In this document: positions 2,657 through 13,157 of the stretch, in pieces
How positions within the stretch are numbered: the stretch's first letter is position 1
Layout: each line of letters starts with the position of its first letter
NCBI RefSeq assembly: GCF_000236705.1
Contig: NC_016599.1
Location: 558,001-622,000 of the forward strand
DNA from: Owenweeksia hongkongensis DSM 17368
GTDB taxonomy: Bacteria > Bacteroidota > Bacteroidia > Flavobacteriales > Schleiferiaceae
Direction: 5' to 3'
Length of the DNA: 64,000 nucleotides
Program-made: the position numbers and the translations under genes
Notes under the pieces: generated by a model
The model's input: only the letters and a program-made list of their open reading frames with translations
Told to the model about the DNA's origin: nothing
The model's database searches: none

Positions 2657-3706
2657 ATGAAAACATCAAAAACAACACAGGCAGATAACTCAGAAATGCC
2701 TCCGCATTTGAAAAAAGTAGATGCAGATAACTTTAACATATCCCGTAAAAAATGGGGTAGAGGTTTTCGCTATTTGAATGAAGATGGTGAATCCCTTGTG
2801 GATGATTCAATCTTAGATACGGTTCAAGGAATTGCGGTCCCTAACACCTGGACAGACGTTACACTGAGCGATAGGTCAGACACTTATATACAAGCACGTG
2901 GTTATGATGGGGCTGGAAAATTGCAATATCTATATCATCCTGATTATCTGGCTTATCGAAATGAGCAAAAGTTCAATGAGCTTCTTGACTTCGGGCGTGT
3001 AATTCCACGTATCAGGCGAAGACTAAGAAAAGACTTAGCTGCTGAGCACTGGGACGAACAAAAGCTACTGGCACTTATTGTAAAGATCTTAGACAAATAC
3101 CATTTGAGAATTGGTAGCCGTATTTATGCCCAAAAAGGACAATCATACGGCCTTACTACTTTGCGTAAAAAGCATCTTAAGGAAGAAGAAGATTCCTTTT
3201 CATTTGAATATATTGGCAAAAGTGGGCAGGAGCGTACCATAAACCTTACGGATAGTAGCTTGGTAAAACTAATAGAAGAAGTAGCAGAATTTCCTGGGTG
3301 GGAGCTTTTTTCATTTCGCACAGATGAAGGAAAATATTCAGCAAATGCAGGTGAAGTAAATAACTATATCCGTAAAATATCTGGAGGAGATTTTAGCGCT
3401 CGAGACTTTAGAACATGGGCTGGCACAGTACTTAGCCTAAAATATCTATCTAAGGCTCAAACTATAGTGGAGAAAAACCCAAAGCGAAAATTGGGTAGCA
3501 CATTGGTAGAGTTGGTTTCAGAAAAACTTGGAAATACACCTGCCATTTGCAAAGATTATTACATACACCCCGAAGTATTGAAGCATGCGATAAAAGAAGA
3601 TTTTGACAGTGAACCATGTGAAGAGAAATTCCTCAAAAACTCCTTGTATCGCAAACATGAATGTAGAACCATGGAGATTTTAGAAAAGATGAACAAGGAA
3701 AGTTAA
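2657..3706 (+). CDS. DNA topoisomerase IB
   Basis: 349 residues, the size of bacterial/poxvirus-type topoisomerase IB. The N-terminal domain (about 20-110) includes GIAVPNTWTDV and LQYLYHPDY, typical of the family. In the catalytic domain the expected active-site residues are visible: R151 (LRIGSRIY), K188 (YIGKSG), R252 (RDFRTW), N293 in the position that is His in vaccinia but Asn in several bacterial enzymes, and the nucleophile Y302 (CKDYYIHP). It relaxes supercoils by nicking one strand through a 3'-phosphotyrosine. It is monocistronic and widespread in environmental bacteria, so probably an ordinary accessory enzyme. Confidence 0.93.
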   Translation: MKTSKTTQADNSEMPPHLKKVDADNFNISRKKWGRGFRYLNEDGESLVDDSILDTVQGIAVPNTWTDVTLSDRSDTYIQARGYDGAGKLQYLYHPDYLAYRNEQKFNELLDFGRVIPRIRRRLRKDLAAEHWDEQKLLALIVKILDKYHLRIGSRIYAQKGQSYGLTTLRKKHLKEEEDSFSFEYIGKSGQERTINLTDSSLVKLIEEVAEFPGWELFSFRTDEGKYSANAGEVNNYIRKISGGDFSARDFRTWAGTVLSLKYLSKAQTIVEKNPKRKLGSTLVELVSEKLGNTPAICKDYYIHPEVLKHAIKEDFDSEPCEEKFLKNSLYRKHECRTMEILEKMNKES

Positions 3707-3932: not shown

Positions 3933-4001
3933 ATGAAACATTCTAAATATTAAAATCGGGGAGTCCTTTTCTCATTGTGCACTTACCGTTACATTTGCCG
4001 C

Positions 4002-4088
4002 AAATGGGGTGCTCCAATTTTTGGGGCTGAGATGATACCCGGGAACTTTGTTCCGCACCTGATCCAGATAATGCTGGCGTAGGGATTT
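4002..4088 (+). promoter_or_regulatory. TPP (THI-element) riboswitch
   Basis: The classical thiamine-pyrophosphate aptamer blocks are present in order: GGGGTGCTCC (P2 5' strand), GGGGCTGAGATGATACCC (the CTGAGA thi box), then ACCTGATCCAGATAATGCTGG and CGTAGGGA. The variable P3a arm is the GGGAAC-TTTGTTCC hairpin. It sits 63 bases upstream of the transporter start. TPP binding normally turns expression off, in Gram-negative bacteria often by hiding the ribosome site. No obvious terminator hairpin is seen between the aptamer and the ATG, so translational control is the better guess. Confidence 0.96.
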
Positions 4089-4151
4089 TAAGGTTTTTAC
4101 AAGTCTGTAAATGCCTGGTTCATCTCCTCATTTCATTGAAAATAAAAGACA

Positions 4152-4757
4152 ATGATCGAGGAATTTTTTGTTCAACTTACCTGGCTGCAGGGCATCGGTA
4201 CTTTATTCGGAATTGTGCAGGTGGTGTTTGCACGTCAAAACAATATTCACACCTATTTATTTGGGATAGCCTCCATACTCATTAGCCTTTGGGTACTTTA
4301 TCAAAGTGCGCTTTATGCTGATATTTTGCTGCATCTCTATTACCTGGTGATGAGTATTTATGGTTGGTTTTTCTGGAAATTTGGAAAACAACAGTCCGAA
4401 GCCCCGATTACCAGTTCTTCAAATAATGAGCATTTAAAAGCCATGGGAATAGTGTTGGGTTGCTTTAGTCTAATGTCTTACTGGCTAAGCTTTCATACCG
4501 ACTCTGACGTGCCCATCTGGGATGCTGCGGTTAGTGCATTTGCCTGGGCCGGAATGTGGCTCATGGCCAAACGAAAACTTGAAAACTGGATCTATCTGAA
4601 TGTGAGTAATATTATCTCCATCCCACTTTTGATTTACAAAGACCTTTACATTTATGCAGGCATGTCGGTTTTCCTTTTTATTATGGGCACTTCCGGCTAT
4701 TTGAAATGGAGAAAACTGATGAAAGAAGAAAACAAACATGTTTATGCTACAGCTTAA
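4152..4757 (+). CDS. pnuT: PnuC/PnuT-family transporter, probably for thiamine
   Basis: 201 residues with about seven hydrophobic segments, the size and pattern of PnuC vitamin transporters. The family signature is visible in YQSALYADILLHLYY, MSIYGWFFW and KRKLENWIYLNVSNI. PnuC proteins are SWEET-like facilitators; the substrate (nicotinamide riboside, riboflavin or thiamine) is usually told from the regulation. A TPP riboswitch directly upstream points to thiamine, hence PnuT. The next gene starts 20 bases before its stop, so the two are translationally linked. No thiamine pyrophosphokinase or TonB receptor gene is in the immediate neighbourhood. Confidence 0.88.
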   Translation: MIEEFFVQLTWLQGIGTLFGIVQVVFARQNNIHTYLFGIASILISLWVLYQSALYADILLHLYYLVMSIYGWFFWKFGKQQSEAPITSSSNNEHLKAMGIVLGCFSLMSYWLSFHTDSDVPIWDAAVSAFAWAGMWLMAKRKLENWIYLNVSNIISIPLLIYKDLYIYAGMSVFLFIMGTSGYLKWRKLMKEENKHVYATA

Positions 4758-5730
4758 AAAAATGTTGGGTGATGCAGCTGTCTTTAATGGTGAAGTGCTG
4801 AATTGGATAGCAAAAGAGAACCTTTGGAATATTTGGGTACCGAAACAATATGGAGGGTTGGAATTAAGCTTTACAGAAGGTCTTAAAAAACTTCAATCCT
4901 TAGCACGCCTGGATGGTAGCCTCGGCTGGACGATTACACTATGTAGCGGAGCAAACTATTTTATAGGAAATCTGCAACCCGAAACGGCAAAAGAAATATT
5001 TGCAGAGCCAGCTATTTTTGGAGGCAGCGGAGGGATGTTTGGAACGGCAGAAAAGCTTGGGGGAAATTATAAACTCAATGGCACATGGCGATATGCTACG
5101 GGTGCTCCATACCTCACGCACTTTACGCTAAATGCAAAAATCATAGAAAACGGAAAGGAACAGACCAATGATGATGGATCGCCTAAGTTTTTATCATTTG
5201 TAATTCCAGCCAATCAAGTTTCTATAATAGAAGACTGGAATACCATGGGTTTAAAAGCCTCGGCTACCCATTCATTCGAAGTAAAAAATGTACTGGTTGA
5301 TGAGCGCCACAGTTTTGTATACAACACCTTTTATCTGGAGCAGCCTGTTTTCAAAATTCACTTTTCGGTGTTTGCTGATTTAACCCTTTGGGTAAATTAT
5401 ATCGGAATGGCTGAGCACTTGCTAGGAGAAGCTTCTCTACAGGATAAATTAGAATGGAAAGACTTGAAGCAAGCTATTAACTTGGCTAACGAAGAAGCCT
5501 TTGATATTGCCAAGCATATTGAAACTCTAACAAGGAAGGAGGAAGCAATTCCAGAAACATTTATCAATGAGATTCATCAAACTGCAGTGGATTCGGCTAG
5601 AGAATTATCCAAAGTAGTAATTGCATTATATCCACATCTGGGAGTAAAGGCGAGTAGAGAGAATCATGTGTTAAATCAAATTTTCAGGGACTACTTTACA
5701 GCTACACAACATCATATTTTCACAAAGTAG
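4738..5730 (+). CDS. Acyl-CoA dehydrogenase / group D flavin monooxygenase-like protein
   Basis: 330 residues, shorter than the usual 380-400. The start overlaps pnuT by 20 bases; a second ATG lies two codons in. The N-terminal helical part (WVPKQYGGLELSF...DGSLGW), the central beta domain (GGSGGMFGTAEK...GTWRYATGA, then WNTMGLKASATHSFEVKNV) and a C-terminal helical part ending FRDYFTATQHHIF are all recognisable. The final RD...A..HH pattern is closer to HpaB/DszC-type flavin monooxygenases than to true acyl-CoA dehydrogenases, and no clear catalytic glutamate is seen. Sharing a TPP riboswitch with PnuT suggests a role in thiamine or thiamine-precursor salvage, perhaps oxidation of a breakdown product. 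That role is inference. Confidence 0.72.
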   Translation: MFMLQLKKMLGDAAVFNGEVLNWIAKENLWNIWVPKQYGGLELSFTEGLKKLQSLARLDGSLGWTITLCSGANYFIGNLQPETAKEIFAEPAIFGGSGGMFGTAEKLGGNYKLNGTWRYATGAPYLTHFTLNAKIIENGKEQTNDDGSPKFLSFVIPANQVSIIEDWNTMGLKASATHSFEVKNVLVDERHSFVYNTFYLEQPVFKIHFSVFADLTLWVNYIGMAEHLLGEASLQDKLEWKDLKQAINLANEEAFDIAKHIETLTRKEEAIPETFINEIHQTAVDSARELSKVVIALYPHLGVKASRENHVLNQIFRDYFTATQHHIFTK

Positions 5731-5770
5731 TCAGTTTGAGTATTTCAATCTATAGAGGAATATGATAGGT

Positions 5771-6349
5771 TTATTTGTTCCCTCGTCCCAATTCCTCAAC
5801 CTTCTGTAACCATTTCGTTCTATACTTTTCCTTAGATAAGCGAATAGGTCCAATAGTCGTAATTCTCACCTTTTTTACACCGATAAAGTTTAGCGTCAGT
5901 TTTTTCATTGTTATATGACTAGTGCGGCCATTAAACCATCGGTAATACCAAGCCGGCTGATCGAGGGTACAAATTATTCTTGCGGTTTTACCTTTTAGCA
6001 GCTTATCCCACCACAAAGAGTTTTCTCTTTTCTGAAAAGCAAAACCAGGAAGTAAAATCCTGTCTAGAAAGCCTTTCATTAATCCTGGAACAGAGCCCCA
6101 CCAAACGGGATAAACCCACACTAGGTGATCAGCCCATTTGAGCTTGGCTTGCGCATCCAGTAAGTCTGGCTCTAATTCTGTTCGTTTGCGGTATCCAAAT
6201 TGCAAATTGGGATTGAAACTCAAGTCTCGGATATTGATAACCTGTACTTCTGCATCTGATTTTTCAGCACCTTTTTGATAAGCTTCAGCCAAAGCAAAAT
6301 TGAAACTCTCTTTATCAGGATGTCCGTTTATGATTAATACTTTTTTCAT
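5771..6349 (-). CDS. NAD(P)H-dependent flavoprotein oxidoreductase (NQO1/KefF-like)
   Basis: 192 residues with a flavodoxin-like fold. The N-terminal strand and FMN/FAD phosphate loop read KKVLIINGHPDKESFNFAL. The central WVYPVWWGSVPGLMKGFLDRIL is the hallmark of the NQO1/MdaB/KefF family. Such enzymes reduce quinones or other electrophiles by two electrons using NAD(P)H. The small membrane-protein gene directly upstream ends 6 bases before this start, and the Crp-type regulator lies just beyond it, so the three may be co-expressed. Confidence 0.88.
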   Translation of the reverse strand: MKKVLIINGHPDKESFNFALAEAYQKGAEKSDAEVQVINIRDLSFNPNLQFGYRKRTELEPDLLDAQAKLKWADHLVWVYPVWWGSVPGLMKGFLDRILLPGFAFQKRENSLWWDKLLKGKTARIICTLDQPAWYYRWFNGRTSHITMKKLTLNFIGVKKVRITTIGPIRLSKEKYRTKWLQKVEELGRGNK

Positions 6350-8780: not shown

Positions 8781-10055
8781 TTATTCCCCCTCTTTCAAAT
8801 CATCAAACTTCGCCTTCATAGTAGAATTCCTATGCGTAAGCTTCTTAATAGTCAAATCATCCGCTTTATTATTCGCTAATCGCAGGTTGTTTTCAGAAGA
8901 TAGAAGAGCATCTTTAGTTTTCTGAAGGTGATTAATTGTTTTGTCGATTTCATCAATAGCGGTTTTAAACTTGCGGCTGGCCAAATCATAGTTCCTCGCA
9001 AAGCCCTCTTTAAAGGTGTTTATCTTCTCCTCAAAATTGGTGATATCCACATTTTGACTTCGTATTAAACTCAACTCAGCTTTATACTGCATGGAATTCA
9101 TCGCGGCATTTCTAAGAAGGGTAATGATGGGAATGAAAAACTGCGGACGCACTACATACATTTTTGGGTACTTGTGCGAAACATCCACAATCCCTTGATT
9201 ATAAAACTCATTGTCTATTTCCAGTAGGGAAACCAAAACCGCGTATTCACATTTCTTCTCGTTTCTATCCTTGTCAAGCTCCTTAAAGAAGTCCTCATTT
9301 TTCTTCTTGGTAGCCGTTTCATCACCCTCATTTTTCATCTCAAACATTATTGAAATGATTTCATTTCCCGCTTCGTCAAGCTCCTTATAGATGTAATCAC
9401 CCTTGCTGCCAGACCGTGAGTCATTGTCTTTCTCAAAATAAGCCTTCTGAAAAGCTGTGGCGCGTAGCTTATTGAATTCAATTTCACAATGCTGCTCCAG
9501 CGTTTCACCCACCATCTTGGTCGAAAGCCTCTGTTTCATATCCTTGCGAAAAGCTATTTCATCATCTTTCAGCTTTATGATGTCGTCCTTAGTTTTTAGC
9601 TCAGCCGCAAACTTTTCGTTTATCGACTTTTCAAGAAGCAGCTTTTCTGTCTCTTTACTTTTTAGCTCACTAGCTAAATTGTCACGTTCCTTTTCGGTAG
9701 CTTTCAAAGCCTCGCTAATAGCCAGTTGCTTTTGTATTTCGGCATTTTCAATTTTAGCCTTCATGTTCGAAATCTCCGACTCCTTCTGAGCCAAAAGTTC
9801 GGATAGTTGACGTTCGTTTCTTGCCCTAAGTTCAATTAGCTCATTGTCTTTTTTGGTCAAATCCGCTTGTAATGCATTTTTCAGATTTGCTTCAGCCAAT
9901 TTTACGGCATTCACTTTTTCTTTTTCAGCTAATTCTAAGCGGGTATGCAATTCTTCTTCAAACTGATGATCGCGCACTTGCTTTAGGATATCAGCATATC
10001 CGGCTTCATCTACTTTAAAGGCTTTATTACAATGAGGGCAAATTATTTCGTTCAT
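8781..10055 (-). CDS. DUF2130 protein: coiled coil plus PD-(D/E)XK nuclease-like domain
   Basis: 424 residues from MNEIICPHC; an ATG two codons upstream (10061) is equally possible, and the longer frame beyond it is non-coding. Residues 1-12 hold one CPHC zinc-knuckle half. Residues about 30-180 are a long charged coiled coil (Lys/Glu/Ala-rich). Residues about 185-330 contain GETLEQHCE, then KGDYIY (D220) and IMFEMKNEGD (E239-x-K241), the spacing of a PD-(D/E)XK nuclease core. This resembles the coiled-coil/nuclease layout of RmuC. DUF2130 is uncharacterised; a DNA-processing or defence role is inferred from the motif and from neighbours (Fic, AlbA_2, Argonaute). Confidence 0.8.
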   Translation of the reverse strand: MNEIICPHCNKAFKVDEAGYADILKQVRDHQFEEELHTRLELAEKEKVNAVKLAEANLKNALQADLTKKDNELIELRARNERQLSELLAQKESEISNMKAKIENAEIQKQLAISEALKATEKERDNLASELKSKETEKLLLEKSINEKFAAELKTKDDIIKLKDDEIAFRKDMKQRLSTKMVGETLEQHCEIEFNKLRATAFQKAYFEKDNDSRSGSKGDYIYKELDEAGNEIISIMFEMKNEGDETATKKKNEDFFKELDKDRNEKKCEYAVLVSLLEIDNEFYNQGIVDVSHKYPKMYVVRPQFFIPIITLLRNAAMNSMQYKAELSLIRSQNVDITNFEEKINTFKEGFARNYDLASRKFKTAIDEIDKTINHLQKTKDALLSSENNLRLANNKADDLTIKKLTHRNSTMKAKFDDLKEGE

Positions 10056-10099
10056 GTTCATCAATATTTTAAAATGTACGGCAGGGGGTTTTGAGTGCC

Positions 10100-10121
10100 A
10101 CAAATATATTCTTTCATCCCA
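10100..10121. repeat. 22-bp direct repeat, left copy
   Basis: ACAAATATATTCTTTCAT-CCCA recurs at 11525-11546 with one mismatch in 22 bases. The two copies bracket the Fic gene. On the minus strand each reads ATGAAAGAATATATTTGT, that is, a start codon and the codons for KEYIC. Confidence 0.75.
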
Positions 10122-10211
10122 GGTACTTGGTGTTGGAGAGGGTGGACATCTGGCTAAACCATAAGGCAAGAGAAGTATGGCGGTTCTTTAATTTAGATTC
10201 TAATATTTTAT

Positions 10212-10323
10212 GTGCACCACATTTGGTTAAACTTTAAACATATGCTTATAACGTGCACAACATTCCGTGCATATTTGTACATGTTATTTAAACGTGCACA
10301 AGAAATCGTGATTTGTTGTGCAT
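10212..10323. promoter_or_regulatory. Cluster of GTGCAC palindromes between Fic and DUF2130 genes
   Basis: AACGTGCACAA occurs twice, at 10250-10260 and 10291-10301, exactly 41 bases apart (about four helix turns). GTGCAC occurs again near 10212, and related TGTGCAT/CGTGCAT half sites lie between and after. The cluster is downstream of Fic and about 190-240 bases upstream of the DUF2130 start. It could be an operator array; no regulator is assigned. Confidence 0.4.
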
Positions 10324-10352
10324 ATTGATTTATTCGTTGAAGTTTCTGGTTA

Positions 10353-11417
10353 TCATCTGTTTTTGAGTATTTGCAACAAGGCAACATTGATGTAATAGTT
10401 AAACTTGCCAATTTTTACCTTGGTAAGCAAGCCTGCTTCTGCAAGAGTATTCAAGTAGTTTGAAGCAGTATTTCTGTGAATTTTTAGTTCACGCTCCAAA
10501 AAACTGTTTTTGGTATACGGATGCTTAAAAAGGATATTGATTAAATCATGACTGTAAAAACTAAAGTTGCTGCGGATTTCCTTTTTGTAGTCGTCCATCA
10601 GCAATTTTATCTTATTCACTACCACAATAGTTTCTTTGGCTGTAAGCTCAACACCTTTCAACATCCACACAATCCATTCTTCCCAAATACCTTTGGTACG
10701 CACTTCCTGTAGCAGGCGATAATAATCGCTTTTGTTTTTTATGATGTAACTACTCAGATAAAGAACAGGAATATCCAGCAAACCTTGTTGCACCAAATAC
10801 AGGATATTCAGCAAACGTCCCGTTCTGCCATTGCCGTCTAAATAAGGATGAATGCTCTCAAACTGAAAATGAATAATGGGCATTTTTATCAACGCATCTA
10901 TTTCGTGAAATTCTGGTGCATTGATATAACGCTCCAAATTATCGAGCAAAGTCTTTATATCGTCATACTGCTGTGGTGGTGTATAAACTACTTCTTGTGT
11001 TCGTGGATTTTTTAAAACCGTACCCGGTATTTTCCGAATAGGGTGGTTGGGCGAAATAATTTGTTGAATTCTTGAAATATCGTTGACTGTCAATAGGCCT
11101 TTTTTGCGAACAATATCTAATCCTAATTTTATAGCATTAGAGTAGTTGAGTGCCTCCTTTGCGGTAACCGAAGCCACCGTTTCGTCAATACTGGCTTGGT
11201 ATATTTCATCATCTGTGGTAACAATATTCTCAATTTCATTACTATCCTTTGCTTCCTGAAGCGTAAGTGTATCCAATAAAATTTGAGAGTTTGGAATTTT
11301 AGAAACCTCTCCCTTTAATTGCCCCAACGCTCGTGAAGCCTTATTGAGCTGCTTTAAAATTGTTAAAGATTCACAATCTGCTTTTGGAGGGAGTGTCTGA
11401 ACTTTTATTTCTTCCAT
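10353..11417 (-). CDS. Fic-family AMPylase-like protein with C-terminal winged helix
   Basis: 354 residues. An N-terminal Fic_N-type region is followed by the full catalytic loop HPYLDGNGRTGR (H190 to R201). The inhibitory helix motif (S/T)xxxE(G/N) is visible at S59-E63-N64 (SNEIEN), so this is a class II, self-inhibited Fic. Residues about 290-354 form a winged helix-turn-helix (FLERELKIHRNTASNYLNTLAEAGLL). Fic proteins usually transfer AMP from ATP to a target hydroxyl; many act as toxins or regulators. No separate antitoxin gene is next to it, consistent with the built-in inhibitor. It is flanked by 22-bp direct repeats. Confidence 0.93.
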   Translation of the reverse strand: MEEIKVQTLPPKADCESLTILKQLNKASRALGQLKGEVSKIPNSQILLDTLTLQEAKDSNEIENIVTTDDEIYQASIDETVASVTAKEALNYSNAIKLGLDIVRKKGLLTVNDISRIQQIISPNHPIRKIPGTVLKNPRTQEVVYTPPQQYDDIKTLLDNLERYINAPEFHEIDALIKMPIIHFQFESIHPYLDGNGRTGRLLNILYLVQQGLLDIPVLYLSSYIIKNKSDYYRLLQEVRTKGIWEEWIVWMLKGVELTAKETIVVVNKIKLLMDDYKKEIRSNFSFYSHDLINILFKHPYTKNSFLERELKIHRNTASNYLNTLAEAGLLTKVKIGKFNYYINVALLQILKNR

Positions 11418-11482
11418 AAGCTGTTTTTTAAACCTTTAATCTGCCAAGTAAAATCACAAATGATTTTTTGCACTTTGTTAAA

Positions 11483-11542
11483 TTAGTAATATTCTTTGTT
11501 CGTAGAAGCGTTATTGCAGTGAGGACAAATATATTCTTTCAT
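11483..11542 (-). pseudogene. Remnant of a DUF2130-like N-terminus
   Basis: A 19-codon frame reads MKEYICPHCNNASTNKEYY and stops. The first dozen residues match the start of the DUF2130 protein (MNEIICPHCNKA), and the DNA is similar as well. It looks like a duplicated or broken gene start left beside the Fic gene. Translation is not implied. Confidence 0.5.
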
Positions 11543-11546
11543 GCCA
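11525..11546. repeat. 22-bp direct repeat, right copy
   Basis: Partner of 10100-10121, one mismatch. It overlaps the start codon of the DUF2130-like remnant. Confidence 0.75.
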
Positions 11547-11598
11547 AGCTTAAAGAGACGGACAGGGGAGATCTAAGGGTAATAGTTACGCCAATTCA

Positions 11599-12066
11599 CT
11601 AATCCCAAATTAACGGACGCTCTACACCCATAGCTCTCAAATAAGACAAAAACTGGCCAGCATGAACGGACTCATGATAGCCGATGCGCAGCAAATACTG
11701 ACCAAGCATTTTCTTTTCACCATTTCCCGGGTGAATGATTTCCGTATTCGCCAATTCCTCATCGGTAAACTGTTTTATAGTGCTCAAAAACTCCTGACGG
11801 TAAGGCTTGGCAAACTCCAGCTCATCTGCTACACTGATGAACGGTCTGGCTTGCCATGGAGTTTTGTACTGGCTCATGTCTGCCTGGCTTACAATCATAT
11901 TCCAGCCATAGTCGGCTTGTAATACGTGCCTTATCATTCCCAAGGCTGTCATAGCTGAGTGGTCCGGTTTCCAACTATAGAATTCTTCGGGGAGGGCTTG
12001 CCATAAAAGTGTGCTGCGCCTGCGGATTTCGGAAAAGTTTAGGAGGATGAGTTTGGATTGGGTCAT
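11599..12066 (-). CDS. DinB/YfiT-like metal-dependent four-helix protein
   Basis: 155 residues from MTQSKLILLNF; the frame extends 18 codons upstream, but those residues do not fit the family and the internal ATG at 12066 starts the first helix. Three conserved histidines of the DinB-like superfamily are present: H in GMIRHVLQADYGW, and the HESVHAGQF pair near the end. They usually bind a nickel or zinc ion. Functions range from thiol transferases to unknown stress roles. It lies between the Fic region and the SPARTA operon, on the same strand, 98 bases after the AlbA_2 stop. Confidence 0.82.
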   Translation of the reverse strand: MTQSKLILLNFSEIRRRSTLLWQALPEEFYSWKPDHSAMTALGMIRHVLQADYGWNMIVSQADMSQYKTPWQARPFISVADELEFAKPYRQEFLSTIKQFTDEELANTEIIHPGNGEKKMLGQYLLRIGYHESVHAGQFLSYLRAMGVERPLIWD

Positions 12067-12164
12067 GGGTAGGTCACGATTTTTGAAAATAGTGGGGTAA
12101 AGCACGGATTGCAAATCCACGCTATCGGAGTTGTTGCTCTTGAAGTAGAGTAAGTCTAATACGA

Positions 12165-13157
12165 TTACCTGACAAGGTCACTTCTGGTAACTTTCTTCAT
12201 GTAGGTTCCGTCTTCTGTTGAAACCTGAATTTTAAAGGAGCAATCTTCAATAATAAATAGAGAGCTCAATTCGATATGACCAATTGATCTTATTACATTT
12301 GGCAGTATTGGCAATCGATCAGTCCCTATCACAAACTTGTTATCACCGACCTCAATCTCTCTTTTCTCTTCATTCGAAAAGTGAACTTGATAGTCTGGCG
12401 TCTGTAAGGGGTGAGAAGAAAAATATTTTGCGGTGTCCTGATCGCCATAAATAAATATATCCAGATACTTTGATATAAGGGTTCCTTTATTGAAAGCCCG
12501 TACTTCGAAATTAATATTAAACTCAATTCCGCTTTCCAGCCTGCGCTTTAAGAATTCCTTAGGAATCCTGGGAACAAAATCAATCTTGATATCAGTTCGG
12601 TTCTGTCGGTTAATAATATCCTTAATCTCCCAGTCATCCATAGGGATAGATTCAAAGTTGAATCGCTTATAGTATCTTTTGTCCGATGCCTGATGAGCGG
12701 TTGTACCTTTTGGAATCTCAACCACAAATACAACTTGGTTGGCCTCTGGCTTCGAAGTTTGAACTGGAGTGATCTTAATGCCAGTTATCCTGGGAGATAT
12801 ATTGCTATTGATGATTTGCTCAAGCCATTCCTTAGAGAACTCATTACCATTCACAGCATCAATTTTTTCTGGTAAATGTCGCTTCTCTGCCTCATCATAC
12901 TCTTTCACACCGTAGATTATGACTCCACCGTCAGAATTTGTAAAAGCGCTAACATCTTTGGAAATTTCCTTTTTTTTCTCTCCCTTTTTATCTAAAGATG
13001 CAGCCCCCTTATAATCTAAATGGATATTTTCTTCAATACCATCACTGATGTACTGATTTATTTTCTTTAATGTCCACATTCCTTCAAATTGATAATTATC
13101 TAAGTTGAGATTTAAACATTTTTTTATCACCTCAACAATACGTTTTACTAAGTCCAT
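12165..13157 (-). CDS. AlbA_2 (Schlafen-type) DNA-binding/ATPase-like protein
   Basis: 330 residues. Residues about 40-175 form an AlbA_2 domain: ENIHLDYKGAASL, KKKEISKDVSAFTNSDGGVIIYGVKE, VVFVVEIPKGTTAHQASDKRYYKR. The FxNSxGGxIxxGV motif is diagnostic. The remaining 150 residues (about 180-330) are beta-rich and unrecognised. It follows the short Argonaute gene after 22 bases on the same strand, so it is the likely third gene of the operon. AlbA_2/Schlafen domains occur in nucleic-acid-targeting and antiviral proteins and often sit in defence islands. A role as accessory or second effector of the Argonaute system is inference; it could equally be a neighbouring independent defence gene. Confidence 0.83.
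   Translation of the reverse strand: MDLVKRIVEVIKKCLNLNLDNYQFEGMWTLKKINQYISDGIEENIHLDYKGAASLDKKGEKKKEISKDVSAFTNSDGGVIIYGVKEYDEAEKRHLPEKIDAVNGNEFSKEWLEQIINSNISPRITGIKITPVQTSKPEANQVVFVVEIPKGTTAHQASDKRYYKRFNFESIPMDDWEIKDIINRQNRTDIKIDFVPRIPKEFLKRRLESGIEFNINFEVRAFNKGTLISKYLDIFIYGDQDTAKYFSSHPLQTPDYQVHFSNEEKREIEVGDNKFVIGTDRLPILPNVIRSIGHIELSSLFIIEDCSFKIQVSTEDGTYMKKVTRSDLVR

Follow-up and report, generated by a model that had tools for sequence, protein, structure and literature searches.

An earlier report describes a thiamine uptake system of Bacteroides in which pnuT and tnr3 lie behind a TPP riboswitch, PnuT transports thiamine and tnr3 encodes a thiamine-phosphorylating enzyme (PMC5613172). This OMthi-pnuT-tnr3 system shares with the loci studied here a TPP aptamer, a TonB receptor and PnuT, followed by a cytosolic enzyme; this enzyme is the thiamine-phosphorylating tnr3 product in Bacteroides, whereas here it is a monooxygenase-type protein with the acyl-CoA dehydrogenase (ACAD) fold. 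For PnuC, another paper gives facilitated diffusion as the mode of transport, with NadR trapping the ligand by phosphorylation (PMC7221760), and a third presents the specificity of Pnu transporters as predictable from the riboswitch class (PMC7749635). The PnuC–NadR pair, which also occurs in the genome studied here (L119), resembles our system in that a Pnu-type facilitator overlaps or lies beside the first cytosolic enzyme, and differs in that the partner is a kinase and the ligand, by family, is NR; no aptamer stood in front of pnuC in the 10 loci examined. PnuT reportedly works by facilitated diffusion as well, a result ascribed to Jaehme et al. in 2018.

What is new here is a flavin monooxygenase-type enzymatic partner in a putative thiamine uptake operon behind a TPP aptamer. 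The operon lies in the window, a stretch of 64,000 nt of Owenweeksia hongkongensis DSM 17368 (NC_016599.1, positions 558,001 to 622,000), and comprises an aptamer, a pnuT gene and a gene for a 330-aa protein. No report pairing this enzyme with thiamine genes was found in searches of one open-licence library. Sun et al. 2013 cover the phylum with Bacteroidaceae only, and their main text mentions neither acyl-CoA nor pnuT nor monooxygenase (PMC3766115).

Positions 3995-4102 (+) hold a TPP riboswitch aptamer whose P3 arm is extended; it matches RF00059 with 48.8 bits (E 1.8e-8) in a sensitive cmscan of 701 bases. Since this score is below the Rfam gathering score of 54.3 bits, the default-threshold Rfam scan of the whole window listed no TPP riboswitch. 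The first-pass annotation had called the aptamer canonical; it is real and its core motifs are intact, but that word is slightly too strong for a sub-threshold score. Both the core sequence and the paired arms expected of RF00059 are present, as seen by cmscan and in an alignment of 34 aptamers, where 95.9% of cells are paired, against 31-58% when the partners are slid, and both sides have changed in 10 of 22 pairs, which is covariation. With our own covariance model R1, built from 34 training rows (32 of them from the 75 related loci described below), the window aptamer scores 100.9 bits, its own sequence being among those rows. Only 3 of 16 sister-locus aptamers pass the Rfam gathering cut-off, and such sub-cut-off scores may be the reason why the operon went unseen. 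Apparent tandem aptamers in four Salegentibacter loci were rejected, because by sequence each is a single aptamer that the model had cut in two at a long P3-arm insert. Very long P3-arm inserts occur in the TPP aptamers of L025, L028, L030 and L035 (each at about 3046-3336), and of L098, L100, L102, L104 and L106; the model either broke these aptamers up or extended them to 167-188 nt.

Around the aptamer, two further elements may take part in control. The octamer TACATTTG at 3990-3997 (+) fits TAnnTTTG, which we take to be the Bacteroidota promoter consensus, and is a probable Bacteroidota-type -7 promoter element; it starts 16 nt before the GGGGTG of the window aptamer. Of 60 aptamers, 46 have TAnnTTTG no more than 40 nt upstream, compared with 2.7% of 1346 background windows, and a generic sigma-70 scan gave no signal above chance. 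Downstream, a predicted hairpin at 4125-4162 (+) holds the pnuT start codon by pairing TCCTC with GAGGA and TCATTG with CAATGA (RNAfold, -10.8 kcal/mol), with a start-codon pairing of 0.99. Over 67 pnuT starts the pairing averaged 0.77; for 257 other ORF starts from these loci the average was 0.51 (Mann-Whitney p 4e-12, uncorrected for kinship). The hairpin is thus probably a translational off-switch of pnuT, and the folding data are consistent with translational control of the operon. An anti-sequestor pairing between the CTGAGA..ACCC strand of the aptamer and the leader before pnuT was unsupported over 69 loci: z was -2.0 in the window, and across the 69 loci its median was -0.37, with p<0.05 in 18.8%.

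The transporter, 201 aa encoded at 4152-4757 (+), belongs to the PnuT subfamily, with 164.3 bits against a cut-off of 27.3 for PF04973 (E 3.6e-48) and 91.8 bits against 42.45 for TIGR01528. For its ligand, it is the aptamer and the linkage that point to thiamine. The gene overlaps the following ACAD-fold gene by exactly 20 bases behind the TPP aptamer, just as the first-pass annotation had it, and overlaps are the rule elsewhere (66 of 68 pnuT/ACAD-gene pairs, median 20 nt), the other two pairs being separated by gaps of 66-67 nt. Starting from the transporter gave the reciprocal picture. The best 20 matches to the window PnuT in 396 genomes of the class (E <= 4e-44) all adjoin an ACAD-fold gene, whereas of the next 14 places, 10 of which had loci, nine adjoin a NadR-like kinase, one (L170) adjoins neither and none adjoins an ACAD-fold gene; the rank boundary was set post hoc and coincides with a clear change of partner. 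Hence this PnuT subfamily and the ACAD-fold enzyme go together. Four genomes (G121, G176, G205 and G320) have a NadR-side or lone Pnu gene and carry the monooxygenase-type gene elsewhere.

For the 330-aa product of 4738-5730 (+), the most fitting description is a putative flavin monooxygenase-type protein, HsaA/HpaH-C2-like and with the ACAD fold. Its AlphaFold model is confident (pLDDT 95.1, pTM 0.93), and Foldseek places XiaF (E 1.3e-19), Rv3094c (3.4e-19) and HsaA (4.8e-19) first; matches to these three and to HpaH C2 have E of 1e-19 to 1e-15 and TMq of 0.86-0.90 at 15-19% identity, and DszC and a nitrososynthase are also among them. The predicted fold thereby supports the flavin-monooxygenase reading that had been proposed for this gene. 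Pfam and NCBIfam place the protein weakly in the acyl-CoA dehydrogenase superfamily, with NCBIfam matches to SfnB and DszC, and it misses the NCBIfam equivalog cut-offs of HsaA (58.7 against 450 bits) and HpaH (55.7 against 650). An acyl-CoA dehydrogenase proper should have all three Pfam domains above cut-off; here the C domain is above (24.0 against 22.7 bits) and the N (20.9 against 22.9) and middle (25.4 against 33.3) domains are below. His325 does not vary among 52 rows, and both Rv3094c and XiaF have a His aligned with it, the XiaF stretch being a low-scoring second piece of the alignment; we take the conserved His at this C-terminal position to be catalytic in ACAD-fold monooxygenases. 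The protein thus shares predicted fold and C-terminal His region with HsaA, HpaH C2, XiaF and Rv3094c, and differs from them in its length of 330 aa, in its low identity and in that a reductase is not kept beside the gene.

The last point follows from the neighbourhoods of 75 related loci found by a scan of GTDB genomes. Except for pnuT, no neighbour family, flavin reductases included, is common to more than 8 of the 75. On the same ground, a flavodoxin-fold NAD(P)H dehydrogenase-type gene at window positions 5771-6349 (-), which converges on the operon, appears an unlikely reductase partner. A partner reductase could be unlinked to the operon.

The linkage itself is real, wide and specific. 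Among the 75 loci, pnuT is present in 68 and a TPP-type aptamer, detected with our own model, in 69; the aptamer-free ones are L026, L029, L062 and L069, together with two partial matches, L082 and L084. Because the GTDB scan favours close relatives, an additional profile search was made of 396 genomes of the class, of which 36 had a relative at E <= 1e-30. When the six weakest of these carriers are left out, 30 have loci, the window included: pnuT is adjacent in 20, a TonB receptor in two more, and neither is found in the flanks of eight. Alternative gene orders appear to stay within thiamine uptake. One group of six loci (L124-L129) has a TonB receptor ahead of pnuT and the ACAD-fold gene; in L124-L127 a ThiE gene comes after the operon, with a phosphatase-like gene in between that NCBIfam names PafA in L124 and that is similar by eye in L125-L127. 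In two distinct loci, L135 and L076 (the latter identical with L137 on the same contig and counted once), a TonB receptor precedes the ACAD-fold gene without pnuT. Aptamers lie upstream of the receptor in the receptor-containing orders, weakly in L129. In Niabella ginsengisoli (L085:3968-5044), where the preceding pnuT is intact, the gene is spread over three frames, being either broken or affected by sequencing errors.

The linkage was also seen on a tree of 105 rows. In the clade that contains the window, 85 of 95 rows lie beside pnuT, a TonB receptor or a TPP aptamer, compared with one of 10 on the other side. The first-pass annotation had named a gene that mostly stands apart from riboswitches and thiamine genes as the outcome that would speak against its reading, and this outcome was not observed. 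No thiamine feature is linked to the other ten of the 95 clade rows within their flanks of 1.5 to 4 kb; two of the ten are gammaproteobacterial copies (L026 and L062), without pnuT or aptamer in flanks of 4 kb. Among 88 genomes of the window's family, the close form was found only in the window genome and one congener; seven other genomes have relatives of 28-38% identity, without pnuT or aptamer in 1.5-kb flanks. The nearest named rows of the tree are Roseivirga and Marinoscillum, and the closest PnuT proteins outside the genus, in G438 and G370, come from the same class and a different order. These placements suggest transfer. The complete set of aptamer, pnuT and this gene also occurs in a MAG contig labelled Rickettsiales (L018), sister to Marinoscillum and probably misbinned.

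In Flavobacteriales, according to a published paper, vitamin B1 is mostly taken up (PMC8552899). We profiled ThiC, ThiG, ThiE, ThiL and thiamine pyrophosphokinase (TPK) in 50 genomes, comprising 12 non-carriers and 38 carriers that were chosen and not random, four of the carriers (G176, G320, G496 and G497) having an unlinked copy. A full ThiG was defined by E below 1e-100, because weak partial matches were not to be counted: 35 of the 50 genomes pass the Pfam cut-off and nine have the full protein. Six carriers have both ThiC and full ThiG (6/38 for each), and the other 32 have neither. A ThiE-family gene is above cut-off in 23 of the 38, and ThiC, full ThiG and ThiE all went undetected in 15, 12 of which have a linked copy and three (G176, G320 and G496) a copy away from pnuT. 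One of these 15, G026, has a completeness of 92% and is without ThiL as well, a protein found in 49 of the 50 genomes. For TPK, the Pfam model matched two of the 38 carriers and a model of a diverged TPK-like protein matched 23, four matches with E of 0.004 to 0.008 being uncounted; the idea that carriers are without thiamine pyrophosphokinase was weakened by the finding of this protein. One such protein is encoded beside ThiE at L124:2838-3407; it matches nothing in Pfam or NCBIfam and does not keep the GDFD stretch of its relatives.

From these profiles, carriers would seem to be mostly scavengers of thiamine. In the class sample, 4 of the 36 carriers have ThiC, as have 104 of the 360 other genomes (Fisher p 0.029, uncorrected for kinship). 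Non-carriers show similar gaps, nine of the 12 being without ThiC and three having it, so auxotrophy alone fails to explain the gene. In the 15 carriers without ThiC, full ThiG and ThiE, separate pyrimidine or thiazole pieces should be unusable, and whatever product serves them should contain the two rings of thiamine. The first reading of the locus finds support in the predicted fold as to the flavin monooxygenase; the profiles speak against a thiamine degradation fragment as its general substrate, though the 23 carriers with a ThiE-family gene could use one.

On balance, we favour a TPP-repressed uptake module in which the flavoenzyme converts an imported thiamine-type compound, likely a modified thiamine with both rings. 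The observations from which this explanation starts are the operon, its recurrence, its gene order, the predicted fold and the gaps detectable with profiles. For regulation, substrate class and catalysis we would infer the following. When TPP is low, pnuT would be translated, and the flavoenzyme too by way of the overlap; when TPP is bound to the aptamer, the predicted hairpin would close over the pnuT start codon. By facilitated diffusion, PnuT would admit a thiamine-type compound, which in some lineages the co-regulated TonB receptor would supply. Standing in the position that NadR holds next to PnuC, and thiamine pyrophosphokinase (tnr3) next to PnuT in Bacteroides, the flavoenzyme is expected to act directly on the cargo of PnuT. 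As the first cytosolic enzyme on the imported compound, it would pull this compound inward and make it usable, most probably with O2 and reduced flavin from an unlinked reductase. A substantial share of carriers apparently cannot couple pyrimidine to thiazole, and hence an intact thiamine-type molecule is the likeliest product and a modified two-ring thiamine the likeliest substrate. A narrower form of this explanation, possible but held tentatively, is that the PnuT subfamily imports a two-ring modified thiamine and the flavin enzyme oxidises it back to thiamine, which would pull uptake without a kinase. As an example substrate, hydroxyethylthiamine, a C2-adduct, is a chemically sensible guess.

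We consider it rather unlikely that the system instead salvages fragments. In that case a pyrimidine or thiazole left by breakdown, such as an aminomethyl- or sulfonated pyrimidine, would be imported and turned into a substrate of ThiD or ThiE. The ThiE-family matches in 23 of 38 carriers, the six carriers with ThiC and ThiG and the ThiE gene that follows the operon and phosphatase-like gene in L124-L127 would all suit such a route. Oxidation of N and S compounds is known from related ACAD-fold enzymes, and the matches of the 330-aa protein to SfnB, DszC and nitrososynthase agree with such chemistry. However, fragments should be useless to the 15 carriers in which ThiC, full ThiG and ThiE went undetected. 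Less probable still is detoxification or repair, in which the enzyme would destroy thiamine antagonists or oxidised thiamine entering through the same transporter; this would explain both co-regulation with uptake and the lack of a fixed biosynthetic partner, but the tie of a PnuT subfamily to the gene in 20 of 20 cases speaks more for a dedicated substrate than for a by-product. We give least credit to the gene being a bystander or having another job, such as aromatic or lipid oxidation, and riding with pnuT by history, which would suit the 10 unlinked rows of the clade and the nine of 10 on the other side of the tree but not a linkage kept across several families and orders despite changing flanks, nor the overlap with pnuT in 66 of 68 pairs.

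Other TPP aptamers occur in the window genome. One at L118, 12389-12489 (-), precedes a second operon at 9592-12311 (-) that encodes a methyltransferase, a ThiL-like AIRS protein, a ThiE-like protein and a Trm112-like protein; operons of this type also lie behind aptamers in L140-L143 and L146, and they are possibly another thiamine route. The methyltransferase was found in four of the 396 class genomes, and three of these four have the monooxygenase-type gene as well; the probability by chance is 0.003, or 0.02 if the window genome is left out. A third aptamer (L119:3269-6977; aptamer at 5769-5858, -) stands before a TonB receptor with the pnuC-nadR pair just upstream, and L172 has the same order, its aptamer lying between nadR and the TonB receptor.

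Many Bacteroidota must scavenge thiamine, ThiC being present in only 108 of the 396 class genomes. The range of B1-related compounds at their disposal is a question of ecology, for which this operon supplies a concrete gene pair. Moreover, most aptamers of this set score below the Rfam cut-off, and annotation pipelines may overlook them. If our explanation is true, the flavoenzyme would represent an unrecognised step in vitamin B1 scavenging across many Bacteroidota.
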